Virus record (IMG/VR): IMGVR_UViG_3300042555_000899
Location: 1 to 38,036 of that record
Reading direction: 5' to 3' (one strand)
Length of the DNA: 38,036 nt
Source of the DNA: a virus
This document shows, in pieces, positions 6,199 to 32,597 of this stretch. Position numbers and translations under genes: made by a program. Positions within the stretch are counted from its first letter, which is position 1, and every line of letters starts with the position of its first letter. The notes below the pieces were generated by a model, which was not told the DNA's origin, did no database searches, and saw only the letters and a list, made by a program, of their open reading frames with translations.

Positions 6199-7410
6199 AT
6201 GTCAAAGATAAAAGTATTAGTATTGCCATCCGACAGAACAGGTGTTGGTAAATTTCGTTCAATAGACCCCCACATTTTTTTACAGAATCTATATCCTGAT
6301 GATTTTCATATAGATATAGTTTTTGATTTAGATATCAACAACCCATCAGTTTGGGATGACTATCAAATTGTTCATTTTCATAGGGTAATTGCTGGAAATT
6401 ACGAAAACACTGCAAATATTGTTAAGTACCTAAAACAAAAAGGTATTAAAACCGTAATGGATTTGGATGATTATTGGTTACCAACCAAAGAACACCCAAT
6501 TCATGATTTAATTCGTGTAAATAAAATACATGAAAAAATTGTTGATAACGTAAGGGTTGCTGATTATGTGTTAACTACAACCACATTATTTGCCGATGAA
6601 ATTAAAAAATACAACAAAAATGTTTTTATTTTTCCAAACGCAATTAATCCAAAAGAATCACAATTTTGTGAACCAACAATTAAATCAGAAAAATTACGAT
6701 TTGGTTGGTTAGGTGGTTCATCTCACTTACATGATTTAATGTTGTTAGACGGATTATTCCAAAGAATGGAACCATACAAAAATAAAGTACAAACTTATTT
6801 GTGTGGTTTTGATATCAGAGGTAGTGTTACAGAAATTAATTCTGAAACAAAAGAACAAACCAAAAGAGATATTAAACCTGAAGAAACTGTTTGGTACAAA
6901 TATGAAAACATATTTACAGACAACGGGAAATTAATTAGTCCTGAATATCAACAATTTCTATTAAAATTCAAAGAAGAAGATTATTCACAGTTTTCTGATG
7001 AATACTACCACCGTATATGGACAAGACCAGTTCAAACTTACGCTAAAAACTATGCAAAATTTGATGTATCTTTGGCTCCAATTAAAAACCACATTTTTAA
7101 TAAAGTTAAATCTCAATTAAAAGTTATTGAGGCAGGTTTTTACAAAAAAGCGTTAATTGCTTCAAATTTAGGACCATATACAATTGATTTGAAACATTCA
7201 TTAGACCATGGTAACTTTGTTGACGGTAATGCGTTATTGGTTGATGAAAGTAGAAATCATAGTGATTGGTTTAAATACGCTAAAAAACTTATTGATAACC
7301 CAAATTGGGCTTATGATTTAGGTGAAAGATTATATGAAACGGTAAAAGATACGTATGACTTAAATGTTGTTACTAAAACAAGAGCAGAATTTTATAAATC
7401 TATTGTATGA
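6199..7410 (+). CDS. GT-B fold glycosyltransferase (group 1/GT4-like)
   Basis: This 403-residue protein has the two-domain layout of GT-B glycosyltransferases. The N-terminal Rossmann-like half has VLVLPSDRTGVGKFRS at the start and VMDLDDYW at about 86-93, a phrase seen in GT4-like proteins. The C-terminal nucleotide-sugar half begins FGWLGGSSHLHDL (about 168-180) and contains VIEAGFYKKALIAS, where the Glu sits in the usual donor-binding E-x7-E region. It probably transfers a sugar from a nucleotide donor in the infected cell's cytoplasm; donor and acceptor cannot be read from sequence. It opens the glycan island and overlaps the next gene by ATGA. Confidence 0.85.
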   Translation: MSKIKVLVLPSDRTGVGKFRSIDPHIFLQNLYPDDFHIDIVFDLDINNPSVWDDYQIVHFHRVIAGNYENTANIVKYLKQKGIKTVMDLDDYWLPTKEHPIHDLIRVNKIHEKIVDNVRVADYVLTTTTLFADEIKKYNKNVFIFPNAINPKESQFCEPTIKSEKLRFGWLGGSSHLHDLMLLDGLFQRMEPYKNKVQTYLCGFDIRGSVTEINSETKEQTKRDIKPEETVWYKYENIFTDNGKLISPEYQQFLLKFKEEDYSQFSDEYYHRIWTRPVQTYAKNYAKFDVSLAPIKNHIFNKVKSQLKVIEAGFYKKALIASNLGPYTIDLKHSLDHGNFVDGNALLVDESRNHSDWFKYAKKLIDNPNWAYDLGERLYETVKDTYDLNVVTKTRAEFYKSIV

Positions 7411-8108
7411 TACAGGTACCATTAACTAAACTATTATTTTTTGACATTGAAACTGTTGGATTGTATAAAGACTACGATGGTCTTGAACAAAATCATCCGG
7501 CACTTACAAAACAATTTCACAACTACTTTGATTGGTTTCAGAAAAGATTTCCTGAAGACCAAGGGTTGGACCCACAACAAGTTTTTGTAAACCGAGCGGC
7601 ACTTGTTCCCGAGTTTTCAAAAATTGTATGTGCAAGTTTTGCCTTTGTTGGTCCTGATGGAAAAACACACGCACAAACTTTCTCAGGTGATGATGAAAAA
7701 GAAATCTTATTGGGTATTAACGCCCTTCTGAATAAAGTATTCAAATTAGATTTTTGGTTGTGTGGACATAACATTAAAAACTTTGATATTCCTGTGTTAA
7801 ATAAACGTATGGTTATCAATGGAATTAAACCATCACCACTATTACCATCTTACGATACAAAACCGTGGGAAATAAAAGCTATTGATACTATGGATGTATG
7901 GAAAATGGGTAATAACTTTGCGTTATCATCATTGGAACTTATGTGTGCTGCCATGGGTGTTAAATCACCAAAAGAAGGTGAAGTAACAGGTAACCGAGTA
8001 CACGAAGCGTATTACGATTTTAATCAACTTGACTTGATTGTTGAATATTGTGAAAGAGATGTAATGGTGTTGATTGATATAATTAAAAAATTAAAAGAAC
8101 TACAATAA
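7407..8108 (+). CDS. DEDDy 3'-5' exonuclease, PolB-exonuclease-like
   Basis: Visible motifs match the DnaQ-like DEDDy superfamily, closest to the stand-alone exonucleases related to the proofreading domain of family B polymerases. ExoI is FFDIE (D13, E15), ExoII is HNIKNFD (residues 121-127), and ExoIII is YCERD (Y214, D218). The 233-residue length fits the family. It should remove nucleotides from the 3' end of DNA (or RNA) using two metal ions, in replication, repair or nucleotide recycling. It overlaps the upstream glycosyltransferase by ATGA and is followed after one base by the dUTPase, so DNA-metabolism genes sit within the sugar operon. Confidence 0.87.
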   Translation: MIQVPLTKLLFFDIETVGLYKDYDGLEQNHPALTKQFHNYFDWFQKRFPEDQGLDPQQVFVNRAALVPEFSKIVCASFAFVGPDGKTHAQTFSGDDEKEILLGINALLNKVFKLDFWLCGHNIKNFDIPVLNKRMVINGIKPSPLLPSYDTKPWEIKAIDTMDVWKMGNNFALSSLELMCAAMGVKSPKEGEVTGNRVHEAYYDFNQLDLIVEYCERDVMVLIDIIKKLKELQ

Positions 8109-8109
8109 T

Positions 8110-8712
8110 ATGAATAACGAAAACGATGAAATGGACTTGTTGCAACAAGAGTTATCTAATATCTTGAAACAACTTCAAAATGAAATGGATGGTAATCCTG
8201 AACTTGAAATTGAAGAAATTCATGGGGTTAATTTAAAAGAACTGGAAAAAGCGTTTGGTGATAGAGAACCAAAATTGGATTTAAGATTTGTTAAGTGTCA
8301 TCCCGATGCCGTATCACCAAAATATAATTACCCCACAGACTCAGGGTTTGATTTACACTCAACAGAAAGTATTGGTATTCCACCACTGTCAAGAATGTTG
8401 GTTGGAACAGGGTTAAAATTTAATATTAAAGACGGTTATGAAATTCAAGTTAGACCAAAAAGTGGTTTAGCGCTAAAACAAGGATTAACCGTTTTAAACA
8501 CACCTGGAACCGTTGACTCAGGATATGATGGTGAAGTTAAAGTTATTCTATATAATTCAACACATGATACCGTTTACATAGAAAAGGGACAAAAAATAGC
8601 TCAAGCTTGTGTTTGTCCTGTGGCAAATGGTAGATGGGTAAACCCAATTGAAGTTTCTGAAATTTCAGGTAAAGACAGAGGGGATAAAGGATTTGGTAGC
8701 ACAGGAATATAA
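8110..8712 (+). CDS. dut: dUTPase (trimeric type) with N-terminal extension
   Basis: It hydrolyses dUTP to dUMP and pyrophosphate, keeping uracil out of phage DNA and feeding dTMP synthesis. The motifs of the trimeric family are present: DSGFD (77-81), RPKSG (115-119), GTVDSGYDGEV (133-143, with the catalytic Asp) and the C-terminal Gly-rich arm RGDKGFGSTG (190-199). The family core is about 140-150 residues; here an acidic, helical extension of about 55 residues (DEMDLLQQELSNILKQLQNE) precedes it and has no obvious counterpart in standard dUTPases. The start is one base after the exonuclease stop region, supporting the long form. Confidence 0.95.
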   Translation: MNNENDEMDLLQQELSNILKQLQNEMDGNPELEIEEIHGVNLKELEKAFGDREPKLDLRFVKCHPDAVSPKYNYPTDSGFDLHSTESIGIPPLSRMLVGTGLKFNIKDGYEIQVRPKSGLALKQGLTVLNTPGTVDSGYDGEVKVILYNSTHDTVYIEKGQKIAQACVCPVANGRWVNPIEVSEISGKDRGDKGFGSTGI

Positions 8713-8714
8713 GT

Positions 8715-10235
8715 ATGATTACTATAATATACTCAACCCATAAAGATTCTAAGTACAATTCAGAATTTAAAAAACATTTAGAAACTACTGTTGGTTTAAA
8801 AAATACACAAATTTTAGAGTACCAAAATAATAATGAATTTTCATTATCCCAAGTTTATAACCGAGGTATTGGTGAATCAATATATGATATTGTAGTATGT
8901 TTACATAATGATGTAAAACTAGAACAAGGTTGGGGTAAAAAATTAATAAAAGACTTTGAAGATAATCCTGATTATGGAATTATTGGCAAAGCAGGTTCTT
9001 GTTATTTTCCTGAATCAGGTGTCTATTGGGAAAGAATGGGTCAAACTATGGTTGGACAGGTTTATCATCACCCTGAAGGACAAAACAAATGGATTAATAA
9101 ATATTCACCAAAATTACCATTTTTAATACCTGTGGTAACACTTGATGGTTTATTTATATCGTTTAATAAAACAAAAATTAAACACACCTTTGATGAAACA
9201 ATTGGTAAATATCACTTTTATGACCATCCATTTTCATTGTCAAATTATTTAGATGGTGTTAAATTAGGAGTTACCACATCATTTGAAATTACTCATAAAT
9301 CAATTGGTCAACCAAATGAAGAATTTTACAAATCTAAAGAAGTTTTTTTGGAAAAATACAAAACTTTTTTACCATTAGAGATTAAACCAAGTACAGTCTA
9401 TATTCCCGAAGTAAAAGAAAAGAGTATAAAAATTTCTACTAAAACAGCAGTTATTATACCAACAAAAAGTAAATTAAATTTATTGTTTGATTGTGTTAAT
9501 TCGATAATTGAACATTCAGACAAAGAACAATATGAATTATTTATTGCCGATACAGGTTCTTCGTTAGATGAAATTAATCAAATTAAAGATTTTATTTCAG
9601 AAAGAACTAATGTATCAACCATTCATTTAATAGAATACGATTATTATAACTTTGCAAAAATTAATAATGATGTTGTTAAAAATCATATATCAAATGATTT
9701 TGAATACATACTTTTTTGTAATAATGATATCAAATTTTTAAACAACATTATTTATGGTTTAATGAAAATACACAAACAAAATCATAATGTTGGGACCGCT
9801 GGTTGTAGATTACATTTTGAAGATAATTTAGTACAACATGATGGTATTATTTCTTGGATTGCAAAACCTAATGATTTTAAATTATCTCATGCTGGATTTA
9901 AAAGTCATTATAATTACAGTACAAATATTAAAAAAGTATTAGGTAATACCGCAGGTTTAACGATGATTAAAAAATCATTGTTTGAAAAATTGGGATATTT
10001 TAATGAAGAATATAAAGTTTGTTTTGAAGATGTGGAAATGAATTTTAAATGTTTATTAAATGGTTTTACCAATTATTTTGACGGAAGATATGTTGCGTAT
10101 CATTATGAAAGTCAAACAAGAAAAAATGATGATGAAACTGATAAAAATATTAGTCACGATTTACACCAAGTTTTATTACCATTTGTTAATGAAAATAAAA
10201 CAAAACTGAGAAATTTTATTCCTCACGAACAATAA
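8715..10235 (+). CDS. Two-domain GT-A (GT2-like) glycosyltransferase fusion
   Basis: This 506-residue protein holds two glycosyltransferase-2-like domains in tandem. The first (about 1-235) starts MITIIYSTHKDS and has the metal-binding region CLHNDV (62-67). The second (about 243-495) starts TAVIIPTKSKLNLLFDCVNS, has FCNNDIKF (334-341) as its DxD-like site and EDVEMNFKCLLNG as the acidic catalytic-base region typical of GT2. Such fusions often build disaccharide repeats by alternating two activities. The gene begins 2 bases after the dUTPase stop. Specificity is unknown. Confidence 0.87.
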   Translation: MITIIYSTHKDSKYNSEFKKHLETTVGLKNTQILEYQNNNEFSLSQVYNRGIGESIYDIVVCLHNDVKLEQGWGKKLIKDFEDNPDYGIIGKAGSCYFPESGVYWERMGQTMVGQVYHHPEGQNKWINKYSPKLPFLIPVVTLDGLFISFNKTKIKHTFDETIGKYHFYDHPFSLSNYLDGVKLGVTTSFEITHKSIGQPNEEFYKSKEVFLEKYKTFLPLEIKPSTVYIPEVKEKSIKISTKTAVIIPTKSKLNLLFDCVNSIIEHSDKEQYELFIADTGSSLDEINQIKDFISERTNVSTIHLIEYDYYNFAKINNDVVKNHISNDFEYILFCNNDIKFLNNIIYGLMKIHKQNHNVGTAGCRLHFEDNLVQHDGIISWIAKPNDFKLSHAGFKSHYNYSTNIKKVLGNTAGLTMIKKSLFEKLGYFNEEYKVCFEDVEMNFKCLLNGFTNYFDGRYVAYHYESQTRKNDDETDKNISHDLHQVLLPFVNENKTKLRNFIPHEQ

Positions 10236-10246
10236 TATATTTTAAA

Positions 10247-10801
10247 ATGGAAAAAAAAATAACTTTTGTAATACCATCAATAAATAGACCATCAATAATT
10301 AACTGCGTTAATTCATTATTACATCAAACAAACCCAAATTGGGAATGTATCATTATTTACGATGGTGTTGATGGTTTTAAATTTGATGATGACCGAATAA
10401 AAATTGTAGTAACAGAAAAGTTAGGTGGTAGTAGTTCAGTTCACGGTATTTCGGGACTTGTTAGAAATGTTGGTTTAAATATGGTTAATACCGATTGGAT
10501 TGGTTTTTTAGATGATGATGACACATTAGATTCTAATTATGTCCATACGTTATTTACAAAATATAATGATTACGATTTTGTTATATGGAAAATGAAATAT
10601 ACCAATGGTCTTATATTACCAAGAGGTAACTCCATACAATTTGGTGATGTAGGAATATCTTACTGTTATAAAAATAAATTTGAAAATCTTAGATTTGATA
10701 AAAATAGAGACGGTGAAGATTTTGATTTTTTAATTAAATTAAAGTCATTAACAAATAATTTTATTATTGCACCTGAAGTATACTACAATATTAGACACTA
10801 A
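10247..10801 (+). CDS. GT2-like glycosyltransferase, short
   Basis: The GT2 N-terminal signature ITFVIPSINRPSIINCVNSL, a VRNVGLNMV helix (72-80) and a metal-binding LDDDD (88-92) are clear. A GEDFDFLIKL segment near residue 152 could be the catalytic-base ED motif. At 184 residues it is shorter than most GT2 enzymes (about 250-300), so it contains little beyond the GT-A core. An A-rich leader (TTTTAAA) precedes the ATG instead of a Shine-Dalgarno. Confidence 0.85.
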   Translation: MEKKITFVIPSINRPSIINCVNSLLHQTNPNWECIIIYDGVDGFKFDDDRIKIVVTEKLGGSSSVHGISGLVRNVGLNMVNTDWIGFLDDDDTLDSNYVHTLFTKYNDYDFVIWKMKYTNGLILPRGNSIQFGDVGISYCYKNKFENLRFDKNRDGEDFDFLIKLKSLTNNFIIAPEVYYNIRH

Positions 10802-10827
10802 TTATATATATATTATTTTTTATTAAA

Positions 10828-11493
10828 ATGAGATTGTTAATAAAATTTCCAACAAGAAATCGCAAAAGTAAATTTTTTAATGTTTTAGAACAATACCAAA
10901 CATTATGTGAAGACATTGAAAATACATTTTTTTTAATAACTTTAGATAATGATGATGAAGAAATGAATTCACCTGAAGTTGTTAATATTTTTAGTACATT
11001 TAAAAATATAAAATATGTCTACGGAGATAGTACTTCTAAAATTCATGCAATAAATAGAGACCTTGAAACTGAAAATGAATGGGACATTGTTTTATTAGCG
11101 TCAGATGATATGACACCAAAAGTTAAAGGGTATGACAATATTATCCGTAACAAAATGAAAGAACATTATCCAGATACTGATGGGATTTTATGGTTTAACG
11201 ATGGACACCAAGGAACAACATTAAACACTTTAAGTATATTAGGTAAAAAATACTATGAAAGATTTAATTACATTTATTACCCTGAATATAAATCAATGTG
11301 GTCCGATAATGAATTTATGTTAGTTGGAAATATCTTAGAAAAACAAACGTATTTTGATGAAGTTATTATTGAACATGAACATCCTGATTGGGGATTTGGG
11401 GGTAAAGATTCGATTCATATAAAGAATGTAGAAAATGAAACTCACGATAAAAATTTATTTTTAAACAGACAATCTAATAAATTTTATTTATGA
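10828..11493 (+). CDS. GT-A-like glycosyltransferase, divergent
   Basis: The 221-residue protein opens with a GT2-like strand and loop (LLIKFPTRNRKSKFFNVL), then FFLITLDNDDEE (about 44-55) and an IVLLASDDMTP segment (about 87-97) in the place of the DxD metal site. EHEHPDWGFGGKDS near residue 182 resembles the acceptor-side end of related enzymes. A GT2-like fold is probable but the match is weaker than for its neighbours. It overlaps the following gene by ATGA. Confidence 0.72.
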   Translation: MRLLIKFPTRNRKSKFFNVLEQYQTLCEDIENTFFLITLDNDDEEMNSPEVVNIFSTFKNIKYVYGDSTSKIHAINRDLETENEWDIVLLASDDMTPKVKGYDNIIRNKMKEHYPDTDGILWFNDGHQGTTLNTLSILGKKYYERFNYIYYPEYKSMWSDNEFMLVGNILEKQTYFDEVIIEHEHPDWGFGGKDSIHIKNVENETHDKNLFLNRQSNKFYL

Positions 11494-12359
11494 AAAACAT
11501 TTGTACAGTATCCGACAATAATTATTTAATTAAAGGTTTAACTTTATATGAATCTTTAAAGGAATCTTCTAAAGATTTTATCCTTCATTATCTGTGTATT
11601 GATGATACATCATTTAATAAGTTAATTCAATTTGAATCTGAAACTTTAAAAGTTTGGAATATAAATAAATTATTAAATGATGATAGTAATTTATTAAACC
11701 TTAAAAACACAAACTATCAATATTTTTGTTGGTCATTAGCATCGTATTTTTCAAATTTTTTAATGAAAAAAAATAATGAATCAATATTATATATTGATTC
11801 CGACATTTTACTTTATGATGATGTTGAGGTAATTTTAAATGCCATTGATAATAAAGATATTGGTATTTTTAGACATAGACAATTTAATTTATCAATTGAC
11901 ACCCCTGAAGGTCATTATAATGTTGGTATTGTTTATTTTAAGAATAGTGATATTGGTAAACAAGTATTGAACTGGTGGGCAGATGCGGTTTTATTTAAAA
12001 AATACCCTATTTTATCAACTTGTGGAGACCAAAAATATTTAGACGAGTTTCCAAGAATGTGTGAAAATATTTTTATTGATGGAGAATTAGCACATGGGGC
12101 ACCATGGCAATGGCAACTTTATAATTTTGATAATTACAAAAACGATGGAACAATAATTTGGGAAGGTAAAAAACAAAAATTAATTTTTAGTCATTTTTCA
12201 CAATTTAATTATAATTTAGAAAATGATACTTATCTACCATCATCACAACACCATATATACACGCCATTAACCATGTATACTAACAATGAGGGATTAAAAA
12301 TAATTTATGATGATTATTTTGATAAAATAAAAAAAACTAATTTTAAATATAACAAATGA
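11490..12359 (+). CDS. GT8-like nucleotide-sugar glycosyltransferase
   Basis: The N-terminal phrase ICTVSDNNYLIKGLTLYESL is typical of GT8 and related retaining enzymes, and YIDSDILLYDD (101-111) contains the DxD metal-binding motif (D103, D105). A GHYNVGIVYFKNS segment near 142 matches the region after the DxD strand. GDQKYLDEFP (about 174-183) resembles the DQ segment of the family. The protein is 289 residues, a normal length. It overlaps both neighbours by ATGA, indicating one transcript with coupled translation. Donor and acceptor are unknown. Confidence 0.84.
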   Translation: MKNICTVSDNNYLIKGLTLYESLKESSKDFILHYLCIDDTSFNKLIQFESETLKVWNINKLLNDDSNLLNLKNTNYQYFCWSLASYFSNFLMKKNNESILYIDSDILLYDDVEVILNAIDNKDIGIFRHRQFNLSIDTPEGHYNVGIVYFKNSDIGKQVLNWWADAVLFKKYPILSTCGDQKYLDEFPRMCENIFIDGELAHGAPWQWQLYNFDNYKNDGTIIWEGKKQKLIFSHFSQFNYNLENDTYLPSSQHHIYTPLTMYTNNEGLKIIYDDYFDKIKKTNFKYNK

Positions 12360-13252
12360 AAATAGCATTTGGAATGATTGTTTTTGAGGGTGATTATGTT
12401 CTAAAAGAATGTTTGGAACAGGTGTACCCTTTTGCATCACAAATTCTTATCGCTGAAGGTCCCGTTTCTTATTGGCAAAGACAAGGAAGAACAACATCAA
12501 CAGATAATACCAATAAAATTATTAGTGAATTTCCTGACCCAGAAAACAAAATTAAAGTTGTTCATGGTGAATTTAATGAAAAAGATGACCAATGTCGTGC
12601 GTATATGCAAAATATAAATGACGACATTAATTATATATGGAATTTAGATTCTGATGAAGTTTATAAGACTGAAGATTTAAAAAAAATAATTAACTTCTTA
12701 AAAAAAGAACAACCAACAAGTGTTGGAATTAGAAGTTGTTCTTTTTATGGCGGGTTTGACCATTATTTAACAGGTTTTGAGTTAAATAAAGATAATTTTT
12801 TACGTATTTTTAAATATGTTAAAGGGTCTACTTGGTTTACTCATAGACCGCCTACAATACAATATCCATCAAATAGTAATATTGTAAAAAAACATATTGA
12901 CAGTGAAACTCTTTTTAATGAAACAGGTGTTCAAATGTATCATTATTCTTATGTGTTTCCAACACAAGTTTCAACAAAAATTGGATATTATAAAGACAGT
13001 GTTAGTAAACAAAATTGTATTGATAATTATTTTAATGATATTTATTTACCATGGGTCTTAGGTGATGAAACCCAAAAATTAAAAATAGAATCAAATTATA
13101 TAGGTGTACATGAATTTAAACCACATGTTAGGGGTGAATGTTATACTAAAAAATTTGAAGGTACTCACCCTGAATCAATAATTAATTCATATGAATTATT
13201 AAACCAAAGATTTAAAAAAGAATTACAAAACTATGTGGATGACCCCAAATGA
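12356..13252 (+). CDS. GT2-like glycosyltransferase
   Basis: Residues 1-110 form a GT-A nucleotide-binding half: IAFGMIVFEGDYVLKECLEQ at the start, an AEGP turn (33-36), and NLDSDEV (97-103) carrying the DxD-type metal site. The C-terminal half is Tyr/Phe/His-rich with no recognised motif. The glycosyltransferase fold is well supported; the specific reaction is not. The last 20 bases overlap the following methyltransferase-like gene in another frame. Confidence 0.8.
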   Translation: MKIAFGMIVFEGDYVLKECLEQVYPFASQILIAEGPVSYWQRQGRTTSTDNTNKIISEFPDPENKIKVVHGEFNEKDDQCRAYMQNINDDINYIWNLDSDEVYKTEDLKKIINFLKKEQPTSVGIRSCSFYGGFDHYLTGFELNKDNFLRIFKYVKGSTWFTHRPPTIQYPSNSNIVKKHIDSETLFNETGVQMYHYSYVFPTQVSTKIGYYKDSVSKQNCIDNYFNDIYLPWVLGDETQKLKIESNYIGVHEFKPHVRGECYTKKFEGTHPESIINSYELLNQRFKKELQNYVDDPK

Positions 13253-13724
13253 ACAAAATTTTTTTAAACAAAATTTAAATCCAAATCAAAGAGTTTTAGA
13301 ATGGGGATGTGGCTCATCAACAATTGACCTGTCAAATATTGTTAATGAAGTCCATAGTATTGAACACAACGAAGATTGGTATAACAAAATTAAACAGGAA
13401 TTACTAAATAATCCAAATGTATTTTTACACCTTTGTCAACCAAATGAAACATATGTTGAAGGTGGTCATTGTGGAACGTATGAGCAATTTAAAACATATA
13501 TTACAAAACCTATTAAATTAGGTAAATTTAATTTGATTTTTATTGATGGTAGGGCAAGAATTGAATGTGCTAAAATATGTAAAGATATTTCACATGAAGA
13601 TACTTTAATTTTTATTCATGATTATAAAGGTAGATACCATAGTGAAAATTATAAAGAAGTTGAAAACTATTTAACCTTTATTTCTGAAGTGGAAAACTTA
13701 GCTTTATTTAAAATAAAAAAATGA
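13233..13724 (+). CDS. SAM-dependent methyltransferase-like protein
   Basis: RVLEWGCGSSTIDLS (20-34) is a Rossmann motif I that normally holds S-adenosylmethionine, followed by an acidic turn (VHSIEHN) at the end of strand 2 and FNLIFIDGRAR further on, the motif IV region. The 163 residues cover only the catalytic core. It may methylate a sugar or act on a glycan intermediate, given neighbours on both sides. ATG at 13239 (two codons in) is an equally plausible start and would shorten the overlap. The end overlaps the next gene by ATGA. Confidence 0.78.
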   Translation: MWMTPNEQNFFKQNLNPNQRVLEWGCGSSTIDLSNIVNEVHSIEHNEDWYNKIKQELLNNPNVFLHLCQPNETYVEGGHCGTYEQFKTYITKPIKLGKFNLIFIDGRARIECAKICKDISHEDTLIFIHDYKGRYHSENYKEVENYLTFISEVENLALFKIKK

Positions 13725-15856: not shown

Positions 15857-15883
15857 TTAAACACGCAATTTAAAATAATAGAA

Positions 15884-16819
15884 ATGATAAATATAAGTTT
15901 AGAAAATAATTTAGAATTATATCAAGATTACGAAAAATCATTATCTTTTTTATCTAATATTGATGATAGTTCATATAACTATCCTAATAATATTACATAT
16001 TTTCACGTTTATTCGGAAATTAAAAACGAAAAGGAACTTTTATGTATTGAGTCGTATTTGGCAACTCAAGATTTAGAAAAAACTAAGTTAATATTATGGT
16101 CAGATTATGATATCTCAGACAATGAGTTAATTAAACCATACAAAGATTTAATAGATATGAGAGTCTATAATTTTAAAACCGAATCCATAGGTACATTACT
16201 TGAAAATAATGAGTACTTAAATGGTGCTAACGATACAAAACATTATATGAAAAGTGGTATTTTAAGATTCCTTGTAACTTACAAATATGGTGGAGTATGG
16301 GTTGATATGGACATGGTATTACTAAGAAACTTTAAACCAATTTTAGACCAAGAATGGGCATATATGTGGGGGGCTGAAACGGACTTCAATAATTTTGGAC
16401 CATGTGCGGCAATTATGAATATTCACAAAGAAAGCTCTCACGGTAAAATGTGTCTTGAAGAAATTTTAAATACAAGAATGGTTCCTGATAGTACTGTTTT
16501 AGACCACGTTTTATTAGCAAAAGTTTACACTAAAAATAAATTCACAGTATTTCCCTCAGCTTTTTTTAATACTGAGTGGCAAATGAATGTAAAATGGTTA
16601 AATGGTGTTAAACAATATGACCCAAATGGATTGGGTACAAAAACTGAAAAGGGTTGGTTTGTAAAAAATGAATATAGTGATTCATTATTTGAAAACGCAT
16701 TTTCTTGGCATTGGCACAATTCAACATATAAAAATCATACAATAGGTGAAGGCAGTAAATTTTATCAATTACAAAATAAAATAAAATCATTATTAAATGA
16801 TAAAAAAATTATTTTATGA
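15884..16819 (+). CDS. GT32-like glycosyltransferase (sugar-binding DxD type)
   Basis: YGGVWVDMDMVLLRNF (135-150) is the hallmark of the Gly_transf_sug/GT32 group, with DMD (141-143) coordinating the donor-bound metal. ITYFHVYSE (37-45) and LWSDYDISDN (71-80) fit the early strands of the same fold, and FSWHWHNSTY near the C-terminus is a typical His-containing end. The 311 residues fit the family. A 27-base non-coding gap precedes it, and its end overlaps the dehydratase gene by ATGA. Confidence 0.88.
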   Translation: MINISLENNLELYQDYEKSLSFLSNIDDSSYNYPNNITYFHVYSEIKNEKELLCIESYLATQDLEKTKLILWSDYDISDNELIKPYKDLIDMRVYNFKTESIGTLLENNEYLNGANDTKHYMKSGILRFLVTYKYGGVWVDMDMVLLRNFKPILDQEWAYMWGAETDFNNFGPCAAIMNIHKESSHGKMCLEEILNTRMVPDSTVLDHVLLAKVYTKNKFTVFPSAFFNTEWQMNVKWLNGVKQYDPNGLGTKTEKGWFVKNEYSDSLFENAFSWHWHNSTYKNHTIGEGSKFYQLQNKIKSLLNDKKIIL

Positions 16820-17763
16820 AAAAAGCACTAATAATTGGAATATCAGGACAAGATGGTTCTTTATTAGCAAAGCATTTATTGGAAAATAACTATAAAGTAT
16901 ATGGGACATCAAGAGATTATGAATTAACATCATTTAATGGTTTAAAAAAACTTGGAATTTTTGATAAGGTTGAATTACAGTCAATGATACTTAACGATTT
17001 TAGAAGTGTTATGAAAGCAATTGACGTTGTAAGACCAGATGAAATTTATAATTTGGCGGGTCAAACATCTGTGGGTTTTTCATTTTTACAACCAGTTGAA
17101 ACTATTGAGAGTATTATTAATGGATGTCTTAATGTTTTGGAAACTGTTAAATTTTTAAAGTTAGATTGTAAAATTTTTAATCCGTGTTCTTCCGAATGTT
17201 TTGGGGAATCTACAGATAACTCAAAAGAATCAACACCTTTTAACCCACTATCACCATATGCTGTTGCTAAAACCTCGGCATATTGGTTAACATCAAATTA
17301 TCGAAAATCTTACGGTATATACACATGTTCGGGAATATTGAGTAATCATGAATCATTTTTAAGAAGTGAAAGATTTGTGACCATGAAAATTATAAATTCG
17401 GCCAAAAGAATTTACGAGGGGGTTCAGAGTAAATTAGAGTTAGGTAATATTTCTATTGTTAGAGATTGGGGGTGTGCTGAAGAGTATGTAAAGGCAATGC
17501 ATTTAATGTTACAACAAGAAAATCCTGAAGATATGATAATTTCAACAAATAAATCAATAAGCTTGGAAGAGTTTATTGATTATACATTTAAAAAATATAA
17601 TTTAGATTATCAAAAACATATAATAATAAATAATGACTTAATAAGACCAAACGACATTAAAGTTAGTAGATTGTCAAATAATAAAATATTTGACCGTTTA
17701 GGATGGAAGCCTCAAAATAACGTGTATAATGTAATTGATAAATTAGTGAACACTTTAAATTAA
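16816..17763 (+). CDS. gmd: GDP-mannose 4,6-dehydratase-like short-chain dehydrogenase
   Basis: The family enzyme converts GDP-mannose to GDP-4-keto-6-deoxymannose with bound NADP. Seen here are the cofactor loop GISGQDGS (8-15), NLAGQTSVGFSFLQP (79-93, close to the NLAAQSHV phrase of Gmd), catalytic CSSE (124-127), SPYAVAK (Tyr148, Lys152), and NHES with FVTMKI after it, which are substrate-site phrases of Gmd rather than of other epimerases. NISIVRDWG matches the Gmd RDWG segment. The 315 residues are slightly shorter than bacterial Gmd (about 345-370). It is followed by an aminotransferase and a ketoisomerase, forming a sugar-nucleotide cassette. Confidence 0.9.
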   Translation: MKKALIIGISGQDGSLLAKHLLENNYKVYGTSRDYELTSFNGLKKLGIFDKVELQSMILNDFRSVMKAIDVVRPDEIYNLAGQTSVGFSFLQPVETIESIINGCLNVLETVKFLKLDCKIFNPCSSECFGESTDNSKESTPFNPLSPYAVAKTSAYWLTSNYRKSYGIYTCSGILSNHESFLRSERFVTMKIINSAKRIYEGVQSKLELGNISIVRDWGCAEEYVKAMHLMLQQENPEDMIISTNKSISLEEFIDYTFKKYNLDYQKHIIINNDLIRPNDIKVSRLSNNKIFDRLGWKPQNNVYNVIDKLVNTLN

Positions 17764-17766
17764 AAT

Positions 17767-18678
17767 ATGATTAATCTATTCAACATTAACGAATACAATA
17801 TTAATACGTCTGAATACTCAAATTTATTACACGATAAAAAAGTAATTCAGTTTGAAGAAAAAATTGCCGATTATGTTGGGGCAAAATACGCAGTCACATT
17901 TAATAGTGCAACAAGTGCCATTTTTTTATTACTATTGAATAAAAATATAACTGTGGATATACCAAGTATATTACCACCTGTTGTTATTAATGCAATTGTA
18001 ACATCAAACAATAAATACAATTTTTATGATGATATAAATTGGGTTGGTGATTCATATGTTTTACATAATTTTGGTGATTATAAAATTGTTGATTCAGCAC
18101 AAAAGTTAGAAAAAAACCAATTTAAAAAAGAATGTAATCCTGAGGATTTAATGATTTTTAGTTTCTATCCAACAAAACCAATTGGTAGTTGCGATGGAGG
18201 AATGATAGTGTCTGATGATTTAAATAAAATTTTACATTTAAAAGAAATGGCATTAAACGGAATGTCATTTTCTGAAAACAATTGGGACAGAAAAATAAAA
18301 TTCCCAGGTTATAAAATGTATATGAATAGCATCCAATGTGACATCGCTCTTAGAAATTTTGAAAACTACAAATCAAAATTAGAACGATTATCATATATTA
18401 GGGAATATTATAATGAAAATCTTGGTTTAAATAATACAAGTTCTCATTTGTATAGAATTAACACTAATGATAGAGACACATTAATTAACAACCTAAAGAA
18501 ACATAATGTTCAAACAGGTATTCATTATAAATCATTACACAATCACGAAGTTTATAAAATAAATGATGACTTATTACCAAATTCTGAAATTGAGTCTTTA
18601 ACTACATTATCAATACCATTTCATGAAAAATTAACCAATAATGACATTGAAAAAATAATTAAAATTATTAATGGATAA
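17767..18678 (+). CDS. DegT/DnrJ/EryC1/StrS-type sugar aminotransferase
   Basis: This PLP enzyme family moves an amino group from glutamate onto a keto-sugar nucleotide. The fold is seen in FEEKIADYVGAKYAVTFNSA (29-48), the cofactor residues VDSAQ (108-112, Asp109 and Gln112) and FSFYPTKPIG (131-140) with the Schiff-base Lys137, then a CDGG turn. At 303 residues it is shorter than typical members (about 360-390), lacking part of the N-terminal arm and some C-terminal length. With Gmd upstream it could be a perosamine synthase (4-amino product), or, with the next gene, a 3-amino enzyme. Last bases overlap the next gene by 8. Confidence 0.87.
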   Translation: MINLFNINEYNINTSEYSNLLHDKKVIQFEEKIADYVGAKYAVTFNSATSAIFLLLLNKNITVDIPSILPPVVINAIVTSNNKYNFYDDINWVGDSYVLHNFGDYKIVDSAQKLEKNQFKKECNPEDLMIFSFYPTKPIGSCDGGMIVSDDLNKILHLKEMALNGMSFSENNWDRKIKFPGYKMYMNSIQCDIALRNFENYKSKLERLSYIREYYNENLGLNNTSSHLYRINTNDRDTLINNLKKHNVQTGIHYKSLHNHEVYKINDDLLPNSEIESLTTLSIPFHEKLTNNDIEKIIKIING

Positions 18679-19063
18679 AAATAAATTTAAACCATTTTTA
18701 GACAAAAGAGGTTCATTAGTTCCAATAGAATTTAATTCTCTTCCATTCGTACCAATGCGTGTATTTGTTGTATCTGGTGTTCCAAAAAATACTATTAGAG
18801 GTAATCATTCACATTACACCACCAAACAGTATCTGTTGTGTTTAGAAGGTCAAATTGAAGTAATATTACACGATGGGATTAATGAAAGTAAAACACTATT
18901 AGAAGAAAATGAAGGTGTTTTAGTATCTGAATTAATATGGGATTCTCAAAAATTTTTAACAAAAAAATCAAAACTTATTGTTTTTTGTTCAACAAGTTTT
19001 GACCACGATGATTACATATTTGATTTTGAAGATTTTATTAAAATAAAAAATAACAAACAATAA
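18671..19063 (+). CDS. FdtA/QdtA-type sugar 3,4-ketoisomerase (WxcM-like cupin)
   Basis: A small cupin of 130 residues. RGNHSHYTTKQYLLCLEG (43-60) is the family signature, with His46 and His48 in the place of the catalytic His pair of FdtA (RG-x-H-x-H). Known members convert dTDP-4-keto-6-deoxyglucose to a 3-keto form before a DegT-type aminotransferase acts. Here no dTDP-glucose genes are visible; the upstream dehydratase is GDP-mannose type, which suggests a GDP-linked substrate. That is inference. Its start lies within the aminotransferase gene, strongly linking the two in expression. Confidence 0.85.
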   Translation: MDKNKFKPFLDKRGSLVPIEFNSLPFVPMRVFVVSGVPKNTIRGNHSHYTTKQYLLCLEGQIEVILHDGINESKTLLEENEGVLVSELIWDSQKFLTKKSKLIVFCSTSFDHDDYIFDFEDFIKIKNNKQ

Positions 19064-19066
19064 TTA

Positions 19067-20137
19067 ATGAACATTGGTATAATTGGCGTTGGTAATTTAG
19101 GTATAAATTTATTAAATTTTTTATCTGAAAAACAACATGTAATTTATGTTTCTGATGTTGATGGTGATAACGTTGATGTTATAAAAAACTCAGATGTTAT
19201 TTTTTGTTGTGTTGATACAAATATTTTACCATCAAATTTTTTGGACATAAAAAATGTTATGAATGTGGTTGAAGATTTTGGAATTGCATTTGAATCTGAA
19301 ATTCCATTATATGAAAAAACATTTGTCATATGCTCCACATTAAATCCTGGTGACACAAAACAAATATCAGAGATATTAAATCCAATGAATTTGAGTGTTT
19401 GTTACCTTCCTCTAATTATTGAGTCAGACAACATATTATCATCTCTAATCAATTTAGAAACAATGGTAATAGGTAGTCTTGATTTACAAGTAATTAATAC
19501 AATTACAGACATATTTCAACCAAAACAAAATAATAAATTAAATGTTATTTCAATGACAAGTAAGTCTGCGGAAATTTACAGATTGGCATATAGTTCTTTT
19601 ATACACACCAAAATTAATTTTGCAAATTTTTTAGGTGAATTAATGTTAAATTATGGAACTTCAGACGAAACAAAATTATTACTTAAAAGTTTAGGTTATG
19701 ATAAATCAATATCTGAAAATAATTTTAATTTTGGATTTGGTGTTGGTGGTCCTTGGATTCCAACAGAAAATAGAGTATTAGGTCAAGTGTCTAATGACAA
19801 TAAATTAGATTTTGTTTTACCATTTGTTAATGAAGATTTCAATATAAATCACCATCAATTTATTAAAAAACATTTTATAAATTTAAATCCTGACAAAACA
19901 ATACCTTTTGTGTTTACAGGTGTTGGATATAAAGACATGTCTATTGATATTACAGAATCACCAAAATCTGAATTGGTTTCAGATTTTTTAAAAGAAGGTT
20001 ATACTGTGTATATTATTGAAAGTGATGAATTTATAAAAAATATGAAAGTAGTTAAAGAATTAATTTTTGATTTTGGTGAAAAGGTAAAATTCTTTAAACA
20101 AGGTACATCGCCCAAAGGAGTATACGTTAATTTTTAA
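19067..20137 (+). CDS. UDP-glucose/GDP-mannose dehydrogenase-like protein lacking the catalytic Cys
   Basis: Family members oxidise the C6 alcohol of a nucleotide sugar to a carboxylate in two NAD-dependent steps. Rossmann loop IGVGNLG (6-12), a VIFCCVDTN strand, the hinge helix with Lys182 and Asn187 (HTKINFANFLGEL), and a third domain with FVFTGVGYKDMSIDITESP (GxxYK and R/E-SP phrases) are all present. The catalytic loop, normally GGxCFPKD, reads GGPWIPTE, so the nucleophilic Cys is Trp230. It probably cannot do the usual four-electron oxidation, and may be an alcohol/ketone reductase, a binding protein or decayed. It ends the glycan island proper. Confidence 0.83.
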   Translation: MNIGIIGVGNLGINLLNFLSEKQHVIYVSDVDGDNVDVIKNSDVIFCCVDTNILPSNFLDIKNVMNVVEDFGIAFESEIPLYEKTFVICSTLNPGDTKQISEILNPMNLSVCYLPLIIESDNILSSLINLETMVIGSLDLQVINTITDIFQPKQNNKLNVISMTSKSAEIYRLAYSSFIHTKINFANFLGELMLNYGTSDETKLLLKSLGYDKSISENNFNFGFGVGGPWIPTENRVLGQVSNDNKLDFVLPFVNEDFNINHHQFIKKHFINLNPDKTIPFVFTGVGYKDMSIDITESPKSELVSDFLKEGYTVYIIESDEFIKNMKVVKELIFDFGEKVKFFKQGTSPKGVYVNF

Positions 20138-20174
20138 TGTTTCTTTTATCATTAATTTTCATAAATTATAATTA

Positions 20175-20927
20175 ATGGAAAAAAAACCAAGAAAGAAACC
20201 AACTGTTTCTACAAAACCAACTATTTTTAGTGGAGACACAAAATTTACGTCTAAATCTAAAAAAGAAATTATCGCATCTATAATTTCAAGACCAACAAAG
20301 GAAAAATTTTTAACTGAAAATCAAAGATTGTATTATGATTTATTACAAAAAAATCAAATAATCATATGTTCAGGTCCGGCTGGTGTTGGTAAAAGTTATA
20401 TTGCTATGAAAGCAGCCGTAGATTTACTCGCGGACCCAACAACACCGTATGAAAAAATTATTATTGTTAGACCTGCGGTTGAAGCCGAGGAAAAACTTGG
20501 AGCTTTACCAGGTAATGTTGAAGAAAAATTAGACCCGTACATTTTTCCATCTTACTATCTATTAAATAAAATTATAGGTAAAGATAAAAGAGAACATTTA
20601 AAAAATATTGAAGCTATTGAAGTATTTGCCTTAGCATATATGAGAGGTATGAACATTGACAATTCAATTTTAATTTTTGAAGAGGCTCAAAATAGTACAC
20701 CAAAACAAATGAAACTTTTATTAACTAGAATTGGTTTTAAAAGTAAATTTTTTATTTCGGGAGATTTAGAACAAACAGATAGATATAAAGACAAAACACA
20801 ATCTGGTCTATGGGATGCTATTGAAAAGTTTAAAAATGTTAGTGATATTGGTGTTTTTGAATTTAACGACAAAGATATTGTTAGAAACCCATTAATTTCA
20901 CAAATTTTAAGTAAATACGAAGAATGA
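20175..20927 (+). CDS. phoH: PhoH-like ATPase
   Basis: The Walker A motif GPAGVGKS (67-74), the RPAVEAEEKLGALPG segment (99-113), Walker B LIFEEAQN (166-173) and the sensor phrase ISGDLEQTD (about 194-202) are those of PhoH family P-loop ATPases, which are widespread in tailed phages. The role in phages is unsettled; RNA-related or phosphate-stress roles have been proposed. The N-terminal 40 residues are Lys/Thr-rich and probably flexible. The 37-base gap before it has an AT-rich TATAATTA just before the ATG. It overlaps the following HAD gene by ATGA. Confidence 0.95.
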   Translation: MEKKPRKKPTVSTKPTIFSGDTKFTSKSKKEIIASIISRPTKEKFLTENQRLYYDLLQKNQIIICSGPAGVGKSYIAMKAAVDLLADPTTPYEKIIIVRPAVEAEEKLGALPGNVEEKLDPYIFPSYYLLNKIIGKDKREHLKNIEAIEVFALAYMRGMNIDNSILIFEEAQNSTPKQMKLLLTRIGFKSKFFISGDLEQTDRYKDKTQSGLWDAIEKFKNVSDIGVFEFNDKDIVRNPLISQILSKYEE

Positions 20928-21517
20928 GAATTGCGATAGATATTGATGGAGTGTTAAGAGATACTTTTACCAAGATAGAACAAATTTATCAAAAGTATTT
21001 TATTGATGAGTTAGAACTTGTTGATGACGAATTCAAATATGAAATCATAGCACCATACAATACACCTGAATATTCTAACCATTTTAAATTTAAAACAGAT
21101 GAAGAATATTTGTCCTTTATGTATGAAGAATTCGCAATGGAAATATTTGGTCACTCACCATCAACTGAAATGTCAACATTTTACGATTTAAACGATTTAA
21201 TTGTAAAATACAAAGATAAGGTAAAATTTTTATTAATTTCAAAGCAAGTTGGTAAGACAAAACCAGCAACATTATTTTTTGTTTCAAAATTTGGATGTGA
21301 AATTGATAAAATCATATTTTATAATCAATTGACAAAAGATAGTGTTTGGAATGAGTTTGATATTTTATTAACATCAAACCCTGATTTATTAGAACAAAGC
21401 AAAAACAAAACTTTAATTAAATATGAAACTTCTTATAATTTAACAACTGAGTGTGATGAAACAATTACAACTCTAAAAGAATTTGATAAAAAAATTGAAA
21501 CTTTAATAGAAAAATGA
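20924..21517 (+). CDS. HAD-superfamily hydrolase, nucleotidase-like
   Basis: AIDIDGVLRDTF (4-15) is HAD motif I, with Asp6 as nucleophile and Asp8 as acid/base. VKFLLISKQVGKTKPATLFF (about 94-113) supplies the motif II Ser and a Lys in the motif III position, and DILLTSNPDLL (about 145-155) is in the motif IV region, although its acidic residues are sparse. The 197-residue size fits 5'(3')-deoxyribonucleotidase-like or small HAD phosphatases, consistent with nucleotide-pool control next to dUTPase-type functions. Substrate is not determinable. It overlaps genes on both sides by ATGA. Confidence 0.8.
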   Translation: MRIAIDIDGVLRDTFTKIEQIYQKYFIDELELVDDEFKYEIIAPYNTPEYSNHFKFKTDEEYLSFMYEEFAMEIFGHSPSTEMSTFYDLNDLIVKYKDKVKFLLISKQVGKTKPATLFFVSKFGCEIDKIIFYNQLTKDSVWNEFDILLTSNPDLLEQSKNKTLIKYETSYNLTTECDETITTLKEFDKKIETLIEK

Positions 21518-21789
21518 TTACATTATTTGGTGAAAACTATTATATAAATTTAGATAATATTGACAAGTATGTTAATATTCAAACACCCCCATTATCAGGT
21601 TCACCAGAACCTGAACAACACATTTCAATAGTAAAATATGAAATGGTTAAAACACTTACTGATGTGATTTTAAGCGAAAGTGAAGATATTGATGAAAAAC
21701 TTGGTGGAAAAGCGTCAAGTCAACTTACAATACCATTTAAATTAGCATGGAACACAATGTTAGTTAATAAATTAATTGAAAAATTTTAA
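21514..21789 (+). CDS. Unrecognised 91-residue phage protein
   Basis: No family recognised. It begins with a short beta segment (MITLFGENYYINLDNIDKY), has a Pro/Ser loop (TPPLSGSPEPE, about 29-39) and then a helical region with acidic residues (VKTLTDVILSESEDIDEK), ending in LAWNTMLVNKLIEKF. It is soluble with no membrane segment. Overlap with the HAD gene by ATGA and an 11-base gap to the next gene support that it is real. Confidence 0.7.
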   Translation: MITLFGENYYINLDNIDKYVNIQTPPLSGSPEPEQHISIVKYEMVKTLTDVILSESEDIDEKLGGKASSQLTIPFKLAWNTMLVNKLIEKF

Positions 21790-21800
21790 GTAGAACGTAT

Positions 21801-22853
21801 ATGGAAAACGAAATGATTGAAAAAATCAAAGTGTCAATAAAAAATATTGACGAGAAATTAAACAGAATTTATTTTTTTGTTCAGGACACAAAAGGAAACG
21901 CCAAAGCATCAATACGATACATTTACGAAATGGCGTTAACTTTAAAAGACAATGGACATAATGTTATTATGTTGTATGAAAAGAAAGAATATACACCAGT
22001 TACATCTTGGTTAAAAGGTTCTTATGATGAATTACAACATCAAAGTTTAGAAGGTCAAAATTTAGCAATTGCACCTGAAGATGTTTTGGTTATTCCAGAA
22101 ATTTTTGGTTTTATTATGGAACAAGTTAAAAACTTACCTTGTGGTAAAATTGTTCTATGTCAAGCGTATGACCATATTTTAGAAACTTTATCACCAGGTG
22201 GTACTTGGGAACAATATGGTTTCTTTAAATGTATTACAACATCTGAAGAACAAAAAGATTATATCAATTCATTAATGAGACACGTATCTGTTGATATTAT
22301 AGAACCAACATTACATGAAAATTTTGAATCTTCTAAATTTCCTGCAAAAACACTAATTGGTGTTTCAGCACGTGAACAAAGAGAAGGTCTTAATATTATT
22401 AAACAATTTTATTTAAAATACCCACAATATAGATTTTTCACTTTTAAAGATTTAAGAGGTCTATCTCAAGATGATTTTGCAAAAGGTTTGCAAGATTGTT
22501 TGTTAGGTGTTTGGATTGACCCGACTTCAGGATTTGGAACATTTCCGTTAGAATGTATGAAGAGTGGTGTACCTGTTGTTGGTAAAATACCAAATCTAAA
22601 ACCAGGTTGGATGTCGGAAAAAAATGGTATTTGGATTGATAACCAAAATCAAATGGTTGATGTTATTGCTGATGTTGTTCAAACATGGTTAGAAGATAAC
22701 GTCTTACAAGATTTATATACCGAAGGGTTTAATACCGCAGAAAAATTCACAAACCAAGAGAATTTTAAAACGTCAGTTGTTGACATATTTAATTCATTTA
22801 TCAATAAACGTAAAGATGCTTTTGAAGCACAAATCACACAAGAAACTGCATAA
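21801..22853 (+). CDS. GT-B fold glycosyltransferase
   Basis: This 350-residue protein has an N-terminal Rossmann-like half (RIYFFVQDTKGNAKASIRYI, about 22-41) and a C-terminal nucleotide-sugar half with WIDPTSGFGTFPLECMKSG (about 238-256), the canonical GT4-type donor loop with Glu251 followed by VPVVG. The central ITTSEEQKDYI segment matches the linker region of GT-B enzymes. It is separated from the main glycan island by PhoH and HAD genes but probably acts in the same pathway. It is followed by a GT2-like gene after 2 bases. Confidence 0.85.
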   Translation: MENEMIEKIKVSIKNIDEKLNRIYFFVQDTKGNAKASIRYIYEMALTLKDNGHNVIMLYEKKEYTPVTSWLKGSYDELQHQSLEGQNLAIAPEDVLVIPEIFGFIMEQVKNLPCGKIVLCQAYDHILETLSPGGTWEQYGFFKCITTSEEQKDYINSLMRHVSVDIIEPTLHENFESSKFPAKTLIGVSAREQREGLNIIKQFYLKYPQYRFFTFKDLRGLSQDDFAKGLQDCLLGVWIDPTSGFGTFPLECMKSGVPVVGKIPNLKPGWMSEKNGIWIDNQNQMVDVIADVVQTWLEDNVLQDLYTEGFNTAEKFTNQENFKTSVVDIFNSFINKRKDAFEAQITQETA

Positions 22854-22855
22854 TT

Positions 22856-23662
22856 ATGGAAAAGAAACTTAATTTATCAATAATATTACCTATCAAATCA
22901 GCATTGGCGAAAGATTTTGATGAATACTTTGAAAGCGCCATTAAATCTTTAAAAATCCAAAAAACAACATTTAATGAGTTAATTATTGTTCATACTCAAG
23001 AAGAACAATTGGTTACCAAATTAAAAAATTATGATTTTGAAAGTTTAAATGTAAAACTTGTTGAATACGTTGGAGAACCATCATTTCAAAAACAGATTTC
23101 ATTTGGTGTTGAACAGGCTGAAAGTCAATGGATATCTTTCTTTGAGTTTGACGATGAATATTCAAATATTTGGTTTGATAATGTTTTAAAATATTCTGAA
23201 ATTTATCCTGATGTTGATGCGTTTTTACCAATTGTTGTTGATACTGACAACAAAGGTACATTTGCAGGTTTTACAAATGAAGCCACATTTGCGGCAAATT
23301 TCACACAAGAAATGGGATATTTGAATAATGAAACATTATTAGATTATCAAAATTTCCAAACTGCTGGTATGGTAATTAAAAAAGAAAAATTTGTTGATTT
23401 TGGAGGATTTAAATCATCAATTAAATTAACATTTGTATACGAATTTTTACTCAGAATGACATATAATTCTTTAAGAATTATGACAATACCAAAACTTGGA
23501 TACAAACATACTAGTATGAGAGAAGGTTCAATATTTTGGAATTACAAAAATGGTGATGATATTATGTCAGAAAATGAAGTTAAATTTTGGATTTCAACCG
23601 CAAAAAAAGAATATTTCTTCAAAGACGATAGAAATATAAATTATGAAGTTCAAAATGCTTAA
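22856..23662 (+). CDS. GT2-like glycosyltransferase
   Basis: The GT2 N-terminal strand LNLSIILPIKSALAK, a helix with SAIKSLKIQK, and FFEFDDEYS (95-103) in the metal-binding position define a GT-A enzyme. AGMVIKKEKFVDFGGFK (about 172-188) is the usual segment preceding the acceptor-side acidic residue. The 268-residue length is normal. The final base is shared with the sigma-factor start (TAATG). Confidence 0.82.
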   Translation: MEKKLNLSIILPIKSALAKDFDEYFESAIKSLKIQKTTFNELIIVHTQEEQLVTKLKNYDFESLNVKLVEYVGEPSFQKQISFGVEQAESQWISFFEFDDEYSNIWFDNVLKYSEIYPDVDAFLPIVVDTDNKGTFAGFTNEATFAANFTQEMGYLNNETLLDYQNFQTAGMVIKKEKFVDFGGFKSSIKLTFVYEFLLRMTYNSLRIMTIPKLGYKHTSMREGSIFWNYKNGDDIMSENEVKFWISTAKKEYFFKDDRNINYEVQNA

Positions 23663-32588: not shown

Positions 32589-32597
32589 GTCAAATTA

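Follow-up and report, generated by a model that had tools for sequence, protein, structure and literature searches.

The stretch of DNA analyzed here (the window) is a 38,036-base fragment of IMG/VR virus record IMGVR_UViG_3300042555_000899 and, judging from its genes, a 38-kb piece of a T4-like phage. Between positions 6,199 and 23,662 it contains a locus in which a near-invariant frame of four glycosyltransferase (GT) genes, starting at 6199, 8715, 21801, and 22856, surrounds a replaceable cassette extending from about 8.7 to about 19.07 kb; we hold this architecture with high confidence. We read the whole as a glycan-variation locus that decorates a virion protein, giving this reading, whose target we infer, an even chance. 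The arrangement resembles that of a bacterial serotype locus: the GT frame is invariant, while the block inside it changes between phages that are 87–94% identical around it. Sister phages differing in the cassette offer a direct route to asking what phage glycans are for.

An initial annotation had proposed that the phage encodes a glycan pathway, which the gene families support. It also took the interval for one coupled pathway; instead, the interval is a lineage-wide frame of four GTs and non-glycan genes around a cassette swapped in relatives, and five of its 22 genes (an exonuclease, a dUTPase, PhoH, an NT5C/HAD-like gene, and the unknown gene at 21514) are not glycan genes. The many ATGA overlaps cited as a sign of coupling do occur, at seven of the interval's 21 junctions, but packing is tight across the whole + strand run from 3574 to 30887 (34 junctions, nine ATGA overlaps, seven of them inside the interval). 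As no gap exceeds 49 nt anywhere in this run, close spacing does not set the glycan genes apart.

Glycosyltransferase frame and exchangeable cassette

Relatives were gathered from viral contigs with the sigma-like protein encoded from 23662 (+ strand; weak Pfam match only, 0.044) as the query. The best 80 of 297 stretches were used, some of which lie within records of up to 309 kb, and flanking sequence was added wherever a record contained it. The locus counts refer to 37 loci, comprising the window and 36 relatives spanning the dUTPase to PhoH. Near-copies of the window (L002-L005, L082-L084) and near-duplicates such as L013, L014, L021, L025, L030, L031, L033, and L079 were set aside; not all of the 37 are independent (e.g., L010 and L012 are near-duplicates). 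Gene families were assigned by profile searches (Pfam, PHROGs, and NCBIfam).

The frame is ordered GTB1 (6199), exonuclease, dUTPase, double GT (8715), cassette, PhoH, HAD-like gene, GTB2, GT2d, and sigma-like gene, and all genes of the interval are on the + strand. GTB1 (6199..7410) is present in 36 of the 37 loci, the double GT, GTB2, and GT2d in all 37, and a UGDH-like gene beside the cassette in 27. The claim of two GT-B enzymes is borne out: GTB1 matches phrog_7162 (1.2e-46), and GTB2 (21801..22853; Agt/AmGGT-like; 67 of 69 stretches), despite its weak Pfam match (0.0092), matches solved GT-B enzymes both by family profile and by modeled fold. The GTB1 model also has the GT-B fold, but because it is only fair (pLDDT 76) and its fold matches are generic, it was not used for function. 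GT2d (22856..23662; 69 of 69 stretches) lies under the Pfam cut-off (7.5e-4; 19.9 vs. 23.3 bits), and its family profile reaches solved GTs weakly (best 0.0017). The values of dN/dS (the ratio of nonsynonymous to synonymous substitution rates), calculated for GTB1, GTB2, and GT2d, indicate purifying selection on these enzymes, at 0.03–0.07 against L006 and L010 and 0.14–0.25 against L008 and L018.

The non-glycan members of the frame include a 3'-5' exonuclease (7407..8108), a dUTPase (8110..8712), which is the final gene before the left cassette border, and PhoH (20175..20927), each recognized by profile match. The NT5C/HAD-like gene (20924..21517; weak match, 0.01) and a conserved gene with no assigned function (21514..21789), located between the HAD-like gene and GTB2, are each found in all 37 loci.

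The distance from dUTPase to PhoH ranges from 3,811 to 17,790 bases, with a median of 9,158. Outside the cassette, the window is 87–94% identical to L012 and L006 in long blocks. In L012, the identity per 100 bases is 92% before the dUTPase/GT junction and 59% after it, a weak match continues to 9,324, and matching returns at 19,048; in L006, similarity continues to 10,147, where the double GT ends, and returns at 19,067. For the more distant L016 and L018 (74–75% identical beside the cassette), matching ends at 9,269 and 9,324 and returns at 19,067 and 19,166, respectively. No nucleotide match of at least 150 was found inside the cassette gap for any of these four loci. The G+C content has its minimum (25–28%) between about 9 and 23 kb and does not reach 30% before about 27 kb, so the right cassette border is not marked by G+C.

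The double GT at the left border (8715..10235) matches PF13712 (5.4e-20) and PF00535 (3.2e-11). The cassette genes of the window after it include a GT2 recognized by profile (10247..10801), a GT matching the PHROG glycosyltransferase phrog_14945 (10828..11493; 6.5e-19), and a further GT2 (12356..13252; 5.1e-10). Profiles thus confirm the GT2-like assignments at 8715, 10247, and 12356, while that of GT2d at 22856 is weaker than had been claimed. Pfam, PHROGs, and NCBIfam gave no GT family for two proteins described as GT8/DxD-like, at 11490..12359 (GT8-like by eye) and 13721..14527 (GT-like by eye), and their DxD motifs were seen by eye only. The GT32-like enzyme (15884..16819) does match Gly_transf_sug, a GT family with a sugar-binding DXD region (1.5e-8). 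Among three proposed methyltransferase-like proteins, one is clear (14527..15129; 1.1e-15), one is weak and under the cut-off (13233..13724; 0.0057), and the third (15113..15856) has no family match in the three databases. The cassette ends with a divergent Gmd-like 4,6-dehydratase (16816..17763; PF16363), a short (303 aa) DegT-type sugar aminotransferase (17767..18678; PF01041), and an FdtA-type sugar 3,4-ketoisomerase (18671..19063; PF05523). The UGDH-like gene (19067..20137), identified as a member of the UDPG/MGDP dehydrogenase family by profile match, is the first past the right border.

Clustering of the open reading frames (ORFs) of the 37 loci (1e-10, 30% identity, 60% coverage) placed 417 ORFs in 128 clusters, 63 of which contain a single locus. 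The window has 12 genes between the double GT and the UGDH-like gene. For nine of them, including the GT2 at 10247, none of the other 36 loci contains a counterpart; the remaining three are the GT at 10828 (shared with two other loci), Gmd (10), and DegT (four). Homologs found only as singletons, named by the initial annotation as evidence against a pathway, are therefore the case for these nine genes at this clustering threshold and not for the frame. Families were scanned in 148 of 194 island representative proteins, 13 of the 194 not being traceable to a retrieved piece; those found included GT2 (16), GT11 (11), DegT (10), GMD (nine), FkbM (nine), UGDH (seven), GT10 (six), CmcI (four), and NAD synthase (three), with overlap between families. 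Across 50 records, FdtA occurs in three, all near-copies of the window, and DegT in 23, including those three. The presence of different cassette genes at the same place suggests that the relatives make different sugars, and related phages probably build different sugar coats.

Such turnover could also arise at a recombination hotspot that collects sugar genes from hosts, which would function singly or have no function. The nine cassette genes without counterparts agree with this, as does the loss of the catalytic Cys from the UGDH-like protein (see below). However, GTs, nucleotide-sugar enzymes, and methyltransferases are the commonest island families, GTB1, GTB2, and GT2d are under purifying selection, and the Gmd-DegT-FdtA order is biochemically sensible, and we consider a locus without a pathway quite unlikely.

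The double GT is itself modular. Its first domain (approximately 200 residues) is related in all 37 loci, at 41–89% identity to that of the window, whereas its second part is of three kinds that BLAST at 1e-6 does not connect with one another. The window type occurs in four loci and is a GT2 in the two scanned; a second type, in eight loci, gave no Pfam GT match in the one scanned; and the third, in 25 loci, contains Glyco_transf_4 in four of five scanned, one of which adds a pyruvyl-transferase domain. L028:2463-4952 encodes an 830-aa three-domain fusion of a GT2-like domain, Glyco_transf_4, and a polysaccharide pyruvyl transferase.

Predicted nucleotide-sugar chemistry

The order of Gmd, DegT aminotransferase, FdtA-like isomerase, and dehydrogenase-like protein described at the outset stands at the level of families, but the Gmd-like protein lies under its equivalog cut-off and the dehydrogenase-like protein lacks the catalytic Cys. 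The label of a GDP-sugar cassette holds at the same level, with two reservations: the Gmd-like subfamily is divergent, and no GDP-mannose synthesis gene was recognized among the window proteins scanned. The closest solved proteins to the Gmd-like protein are GDP-mannose dehydratases (9.2e-73), but it fails the GMD equivalog cut-off (TIGR01472, NCBIfam) with 262.8 versus 415 bits. FdtA matches PF05523 with 109.8 bits against a cut-off of 23 and retains the RGxHxH histidine motif, its RGNHSH aligning to RGEHAH of a solved WxcM-like protein. DegT scores 125.9 bits against the 19.8-bit cut-off of PF01041 and reaches no NCBIfam equivalog cut-off, so 3- and 4-amination are both possible.

Provided that the Gmd-like protein is a genuine GMD, the action of FdtA and DegT would yield a GDP-3-amino-3,6-dideoxyhexose, for example the mycosamine precursor, and a 3-amino-3,6-dideoxyhexose formed by these three enzymes is probably the cassette product. 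Alternatively, FdtA and DegT may use the dTDP-4-keto-6-deoxyglucose of the host. According to a 2022 review, no 3,4-ketoisomerase acting on a GDP-4-keto sugar had been identified (PMC8944477). Should the first route be true, the window FdtA would be a candidate for the GDP-sugar 3,4-keto shift, for which that review had no enzyme.

The nearest 13 of the best 80 loci in a Gmd-like search of genome contigs are 47–54% identical and occur in varied bacteria; this subfamily is also under the equivalog cut-off in the three scored. In four of the 13, a second Gmd-like gene starts within about 2.5 kb upstream, canonical-looking in both of those aligned. FdtA was found near the Gmd-like gene in none of the best 80 loci (tblastn with the window FdtA, 1e-4). 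PF05523 exceeded its cut-off at 12 places in eight of 41 of those genomes, with a Gmd-like gene within about 1.5 kb at none and a DegT match at two, in a sample that is small and has short flanks; four further places lie under the cut-off, two of them with a weak Gmd-like match. A pattern scan for FdtA in genome contigs returned 28 stretches with no relative among them, and the neighbor families of the Gmd-like subfamily showed no clear pathway in 50 chosen proteins of 88 listed. FdtA is rare in phage records, with four matches among 50,697, compared with 180 for Gmd. We also observed DegT-like frames of only 201–245 aa in G004, G010, G017, G031, G036, and G046, which match the family profile partially and are possibly miniature aminotransferases or remnants.

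In UDP-glucose and GDP-mannose 6-dehydrogenases, the catalytic Cys sits in a GFGGxC motif. The UGDH-like protein of the window clade has Trp at this place and is missing approximately 32 residues near its N-terminus. Relatives carry Tyr, Phe, Ser, Thr, Asn, or Leu, and the Cys is kept in six of 30 aligned (four were not alignable at the motif) and in two cyanophage homologs. The dN/dS of this gene is 0.14–0.16 against L006, L008, and L010 and 0.21 against L018. A normal sugar-acid dehydrogenase is unlikely, and this family, with homologs in L006-L081, varied replacements of the Cys, and purifying selection on the window-clade gene, is a candidate for a new function.

Candidate targets of the glycan

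The sequence does not separate the three proposed targets, which are phage DNA, a virion protein, and the host surface; our inference favors a virion protein, and DNA is least supported. A fiber-like protein at 2..3526 (- strand), cut by the window end, has an N-terminal part of about 690 aa followed by Thr/Pro-rich stalk segments and no Pfam match, and is a candidate glycan acceptor. A second candidate acceptor, encoded near the major capsid gene at 31731..32588 (- strand), consists of a small domain with a Thr/Pro-rich tail and also lacks a Pfam match. Thr/Pro-rich ORFs on the - strand lie to the left of the frame in all 24 loci whose flank there reaches 5 kb or more (window included). Of 36 lineage records, several of them near-identical, 35 have a TPTxTxTPT coding pattern, versus none of 13 other T4-like phages. 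Two adjacent - strand genes at 31731-32798 have in common a small N-terminal domain (by eye), one with the Thr/Pro tail, and are possibly a head decoration pair.

We propose that the frame GTs would build a common inner glycan in the cytoplasm, and that the cassette would supply special nucleotide sugars and then add and methylate them. The product would be carried by a virion protein, most plausibly on the Thr/Pro-rich stalks of fiber or head-decoration proteins, and cassette variation would alter the outer surface of the particle. A more specific form of this proposal is phage antigen variation, in which fixed GTs prime mucin-like stalks and the swappable cassette, including the GT with the swapped second domain, caps them with strain-specific sugars, among them, in this phage, a GDP-3-amino-3,6-dideoxyhexose formed via an FdtA that works on a GDP-4-keto sugar; we regard this version as doubtful.

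Several observations weigh against stalk glycosylation. A Thr/Pro-rich ORF lies between the homolog of the gene at 26979 and the major capsid protein gene in only eight of the 42 loci spanning that region. The glycan-rich cyanophages S-SSM7 and P-TIM68 are without Thr/Pro repeats, and such repeats are common in viral contigs (among the matches listed). Scans for the Thr/Pro repeat and for the backward pattern were compared among 80 records listed for each, using those of about 40 kb or more (40 and 21, respectively): GT2 (PF00535) occurs in 18 of 40 repeat-chosen versus six of 21 backward-pattern records (Fisher p = 0.27), records of at least 80 kb give 13 of 21 versus five of six, in the opposite direction, and the frame GT2d is found in only seven of the 40, one of them from the lineage set. 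The co-occurrence of repeats and frame may reflect one shared ancestry. Since the general link between Thr/Pro repeats and GTs is not significant, the stalk hypothesis draws on the lineage pattern and on position alone.

The best solved match to GTB2, by profile (1.5e-13) and by fold, is AmGGT, one of the Agt/AmGGT glucosyltransferases of Actinobacillus, at 16% identity. In line with our proposal, Agt homologs of AmGGT are reported to act on adhesins that have been glucosylated in the cytoplasm, lengthening their sugars (PMC12159676). AmGGT itself, a further point against our proposal, is reported not to use glycopeptides (PMC12159676).

A hydropathy scan found no membrane segments in the glycan proteins of the window, and a simple hydrophobicity scan of 403 island ORFs found one segment in seven and two in none. 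Serotype conversion of the Gtr type involves a membrane flippase and membrane-bound GTs; by these scans, the locus encodes no Gtr-like membrane system, and its enzymes look soluble. These data bear on the possibility that the enzymes instead alter the O-chain or capsule of the host during infection, blocking competing phages or the adsorption of progeny to debris, with the cassette varying as host surfaces vary. The hypervariable sugar gene content recalls O-antigen loci, and GMD, GT10/11, DegT, and FkbM types occur among the island proteins of relatives. However, no flippase, polymerase, GtrA-like protein, or lipid-phosphate transferase is among the 25 commonest Pfam families in the 148 island proteins, and none of the 403 island ORFs encodes a multi-span membrane protein, although host carriers could still serve. 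Moreover, four GTs fixed across diverse relatives would be odd for tracking a changing host surface. For the GTs of pelagimyophages, their authors favor a host-surface role (PMC7029224); for the window, we consider it somewhat unlikely.

Finally, the GTs could modify phage bases, as the T4 glucosyltransferases do or with longer glycans, and so evade restriction. The phage is T4-like and has a dUTPase, and Pyle et al. in 2024 reportedly described phage GTs attaching a variety of glycans to DNA. On the other hand, a protein of the thymidylate synthase/hydroxymethylase family occurs in two of 16 lineage records and was not found in a 295-kb record bearing the frame (records may be partial), and no T4 BGT or AGT entry is among the 50 best folds listed for either frame GT-B. 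Methylated and amino-dideoxy sugars, and swaps between relatives, would also be unexpected for a simple restriction shield, and we judge DNA a very unlikely target.

Related systems, lineage, and host

Glycan clusters in T4-like phages and core GTs in moraphages are already in print. The fixed-frame/exchangeable-cassette structure and the GT domain swap are added here and were not found in the available text of the literature searched. The S-SSM7-type cluster of T4-like cyanophages similarly contains nucleotide-sugar epimerases, a methyltransferase, NAD synthetase, a UGDH-like gene, and several GTs on one strand. The UGDH-like protein of S-SSM7 is 34% identical to that of the window and keeps the Cys; the cluster differs in that S-SSM7 lacks the Thr/Pro pattern, and no match to GTB2 was found in 50,697 phage records at 1e-5. 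The pelagimyophage host-recognition island is likewise T4-like and hypervariable, with GTs at a constant place, but is described as containing tail fibers and lying between VrlC and gp14, whereas the fiber-like genes of the window are outside the cassette (PMC7029224).

Clusters in Megavirinae are also alike, with virus-encoded nucleotide-sugar pathways and GTs, rare amino sugars, and clade specificity, and are reported to make capsid-fibril glycans (PMC10117803). They differ in belonging to eukaryotic giant viruses and in that their sugar composition was measured (PMC10117803).

GtfA (4pqg) is among the fold matches of GTB2. The loci of serine-rich-repeat adhesins contain GtfA/GtfB and strain-variable GTs, and may work in a similar way, by analogy, with soluble GTs, initiators that are fixed, and extenders that vary, next to an acceptor rich in repeats. 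In contrast to those loci, neither GtfB nor accessory Sec was recognized among the proteins scanned and the window repeats are Thr/Pro-rich, so we do not claim membership.

Placement among T4-like myoviruses follows from a gp23-type capsid protein and a prohead protease encoded from 32.9 kb on (- strand; phrog_138, 3.7e-66, and phrog_207, 4.2e-44). By tblastn against 2,483 phage records, the capsid protein is closest to those of an uncultured 484-kb phage, Microcystis phage Mel-JY01, and Flavobacterium phage immuto, each below 60% identity, the closest cultured relatives being the Microcystis and Flavobacterium phages. The lineage is probably that of the moraphages, judging from gene content (PhoH, dUTPase, and several GTs) and record sizes. 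Moraphages, published in 2025, are reported to have genomes of up to 307 kb, predicted Bacteroidota hosts, and a core that includes four orthogroups of putative glycosyltransferases (PMC12619734). Like the window lineage, they have a T4-type capsid, protease, baseplate genes, PhoH, dUTPase, and a sigma factor (PMC12619734); the likeness is one of published gene content and genome sizes. The locus, its borders, the variable cassette, and the Thr/Pro-rich proteins were not found described in the available part of that report, which mentions unexamined variable islands (PMC12619734).

Two Thr/Pro-positive viral records of 202 and 311 kb (G064 and G072) contain distant GT2d homologs (E ~1e-77) and are possibly a sister group of the lineage. 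The genes at 24804 and 26979 were taken as baseplate/tail genes by eye only, with no PHROGs or Pfam family over the cut-off. The late-promoter motif TATAAATA was uninformative, with eight matches versus 8.3 expected. A Shine-Dalgarno-like motif precedes only two of the 44 gene starts in the whole window; scarcity of such motifs is typical of Bacteroidota, which are possibly the hosts.

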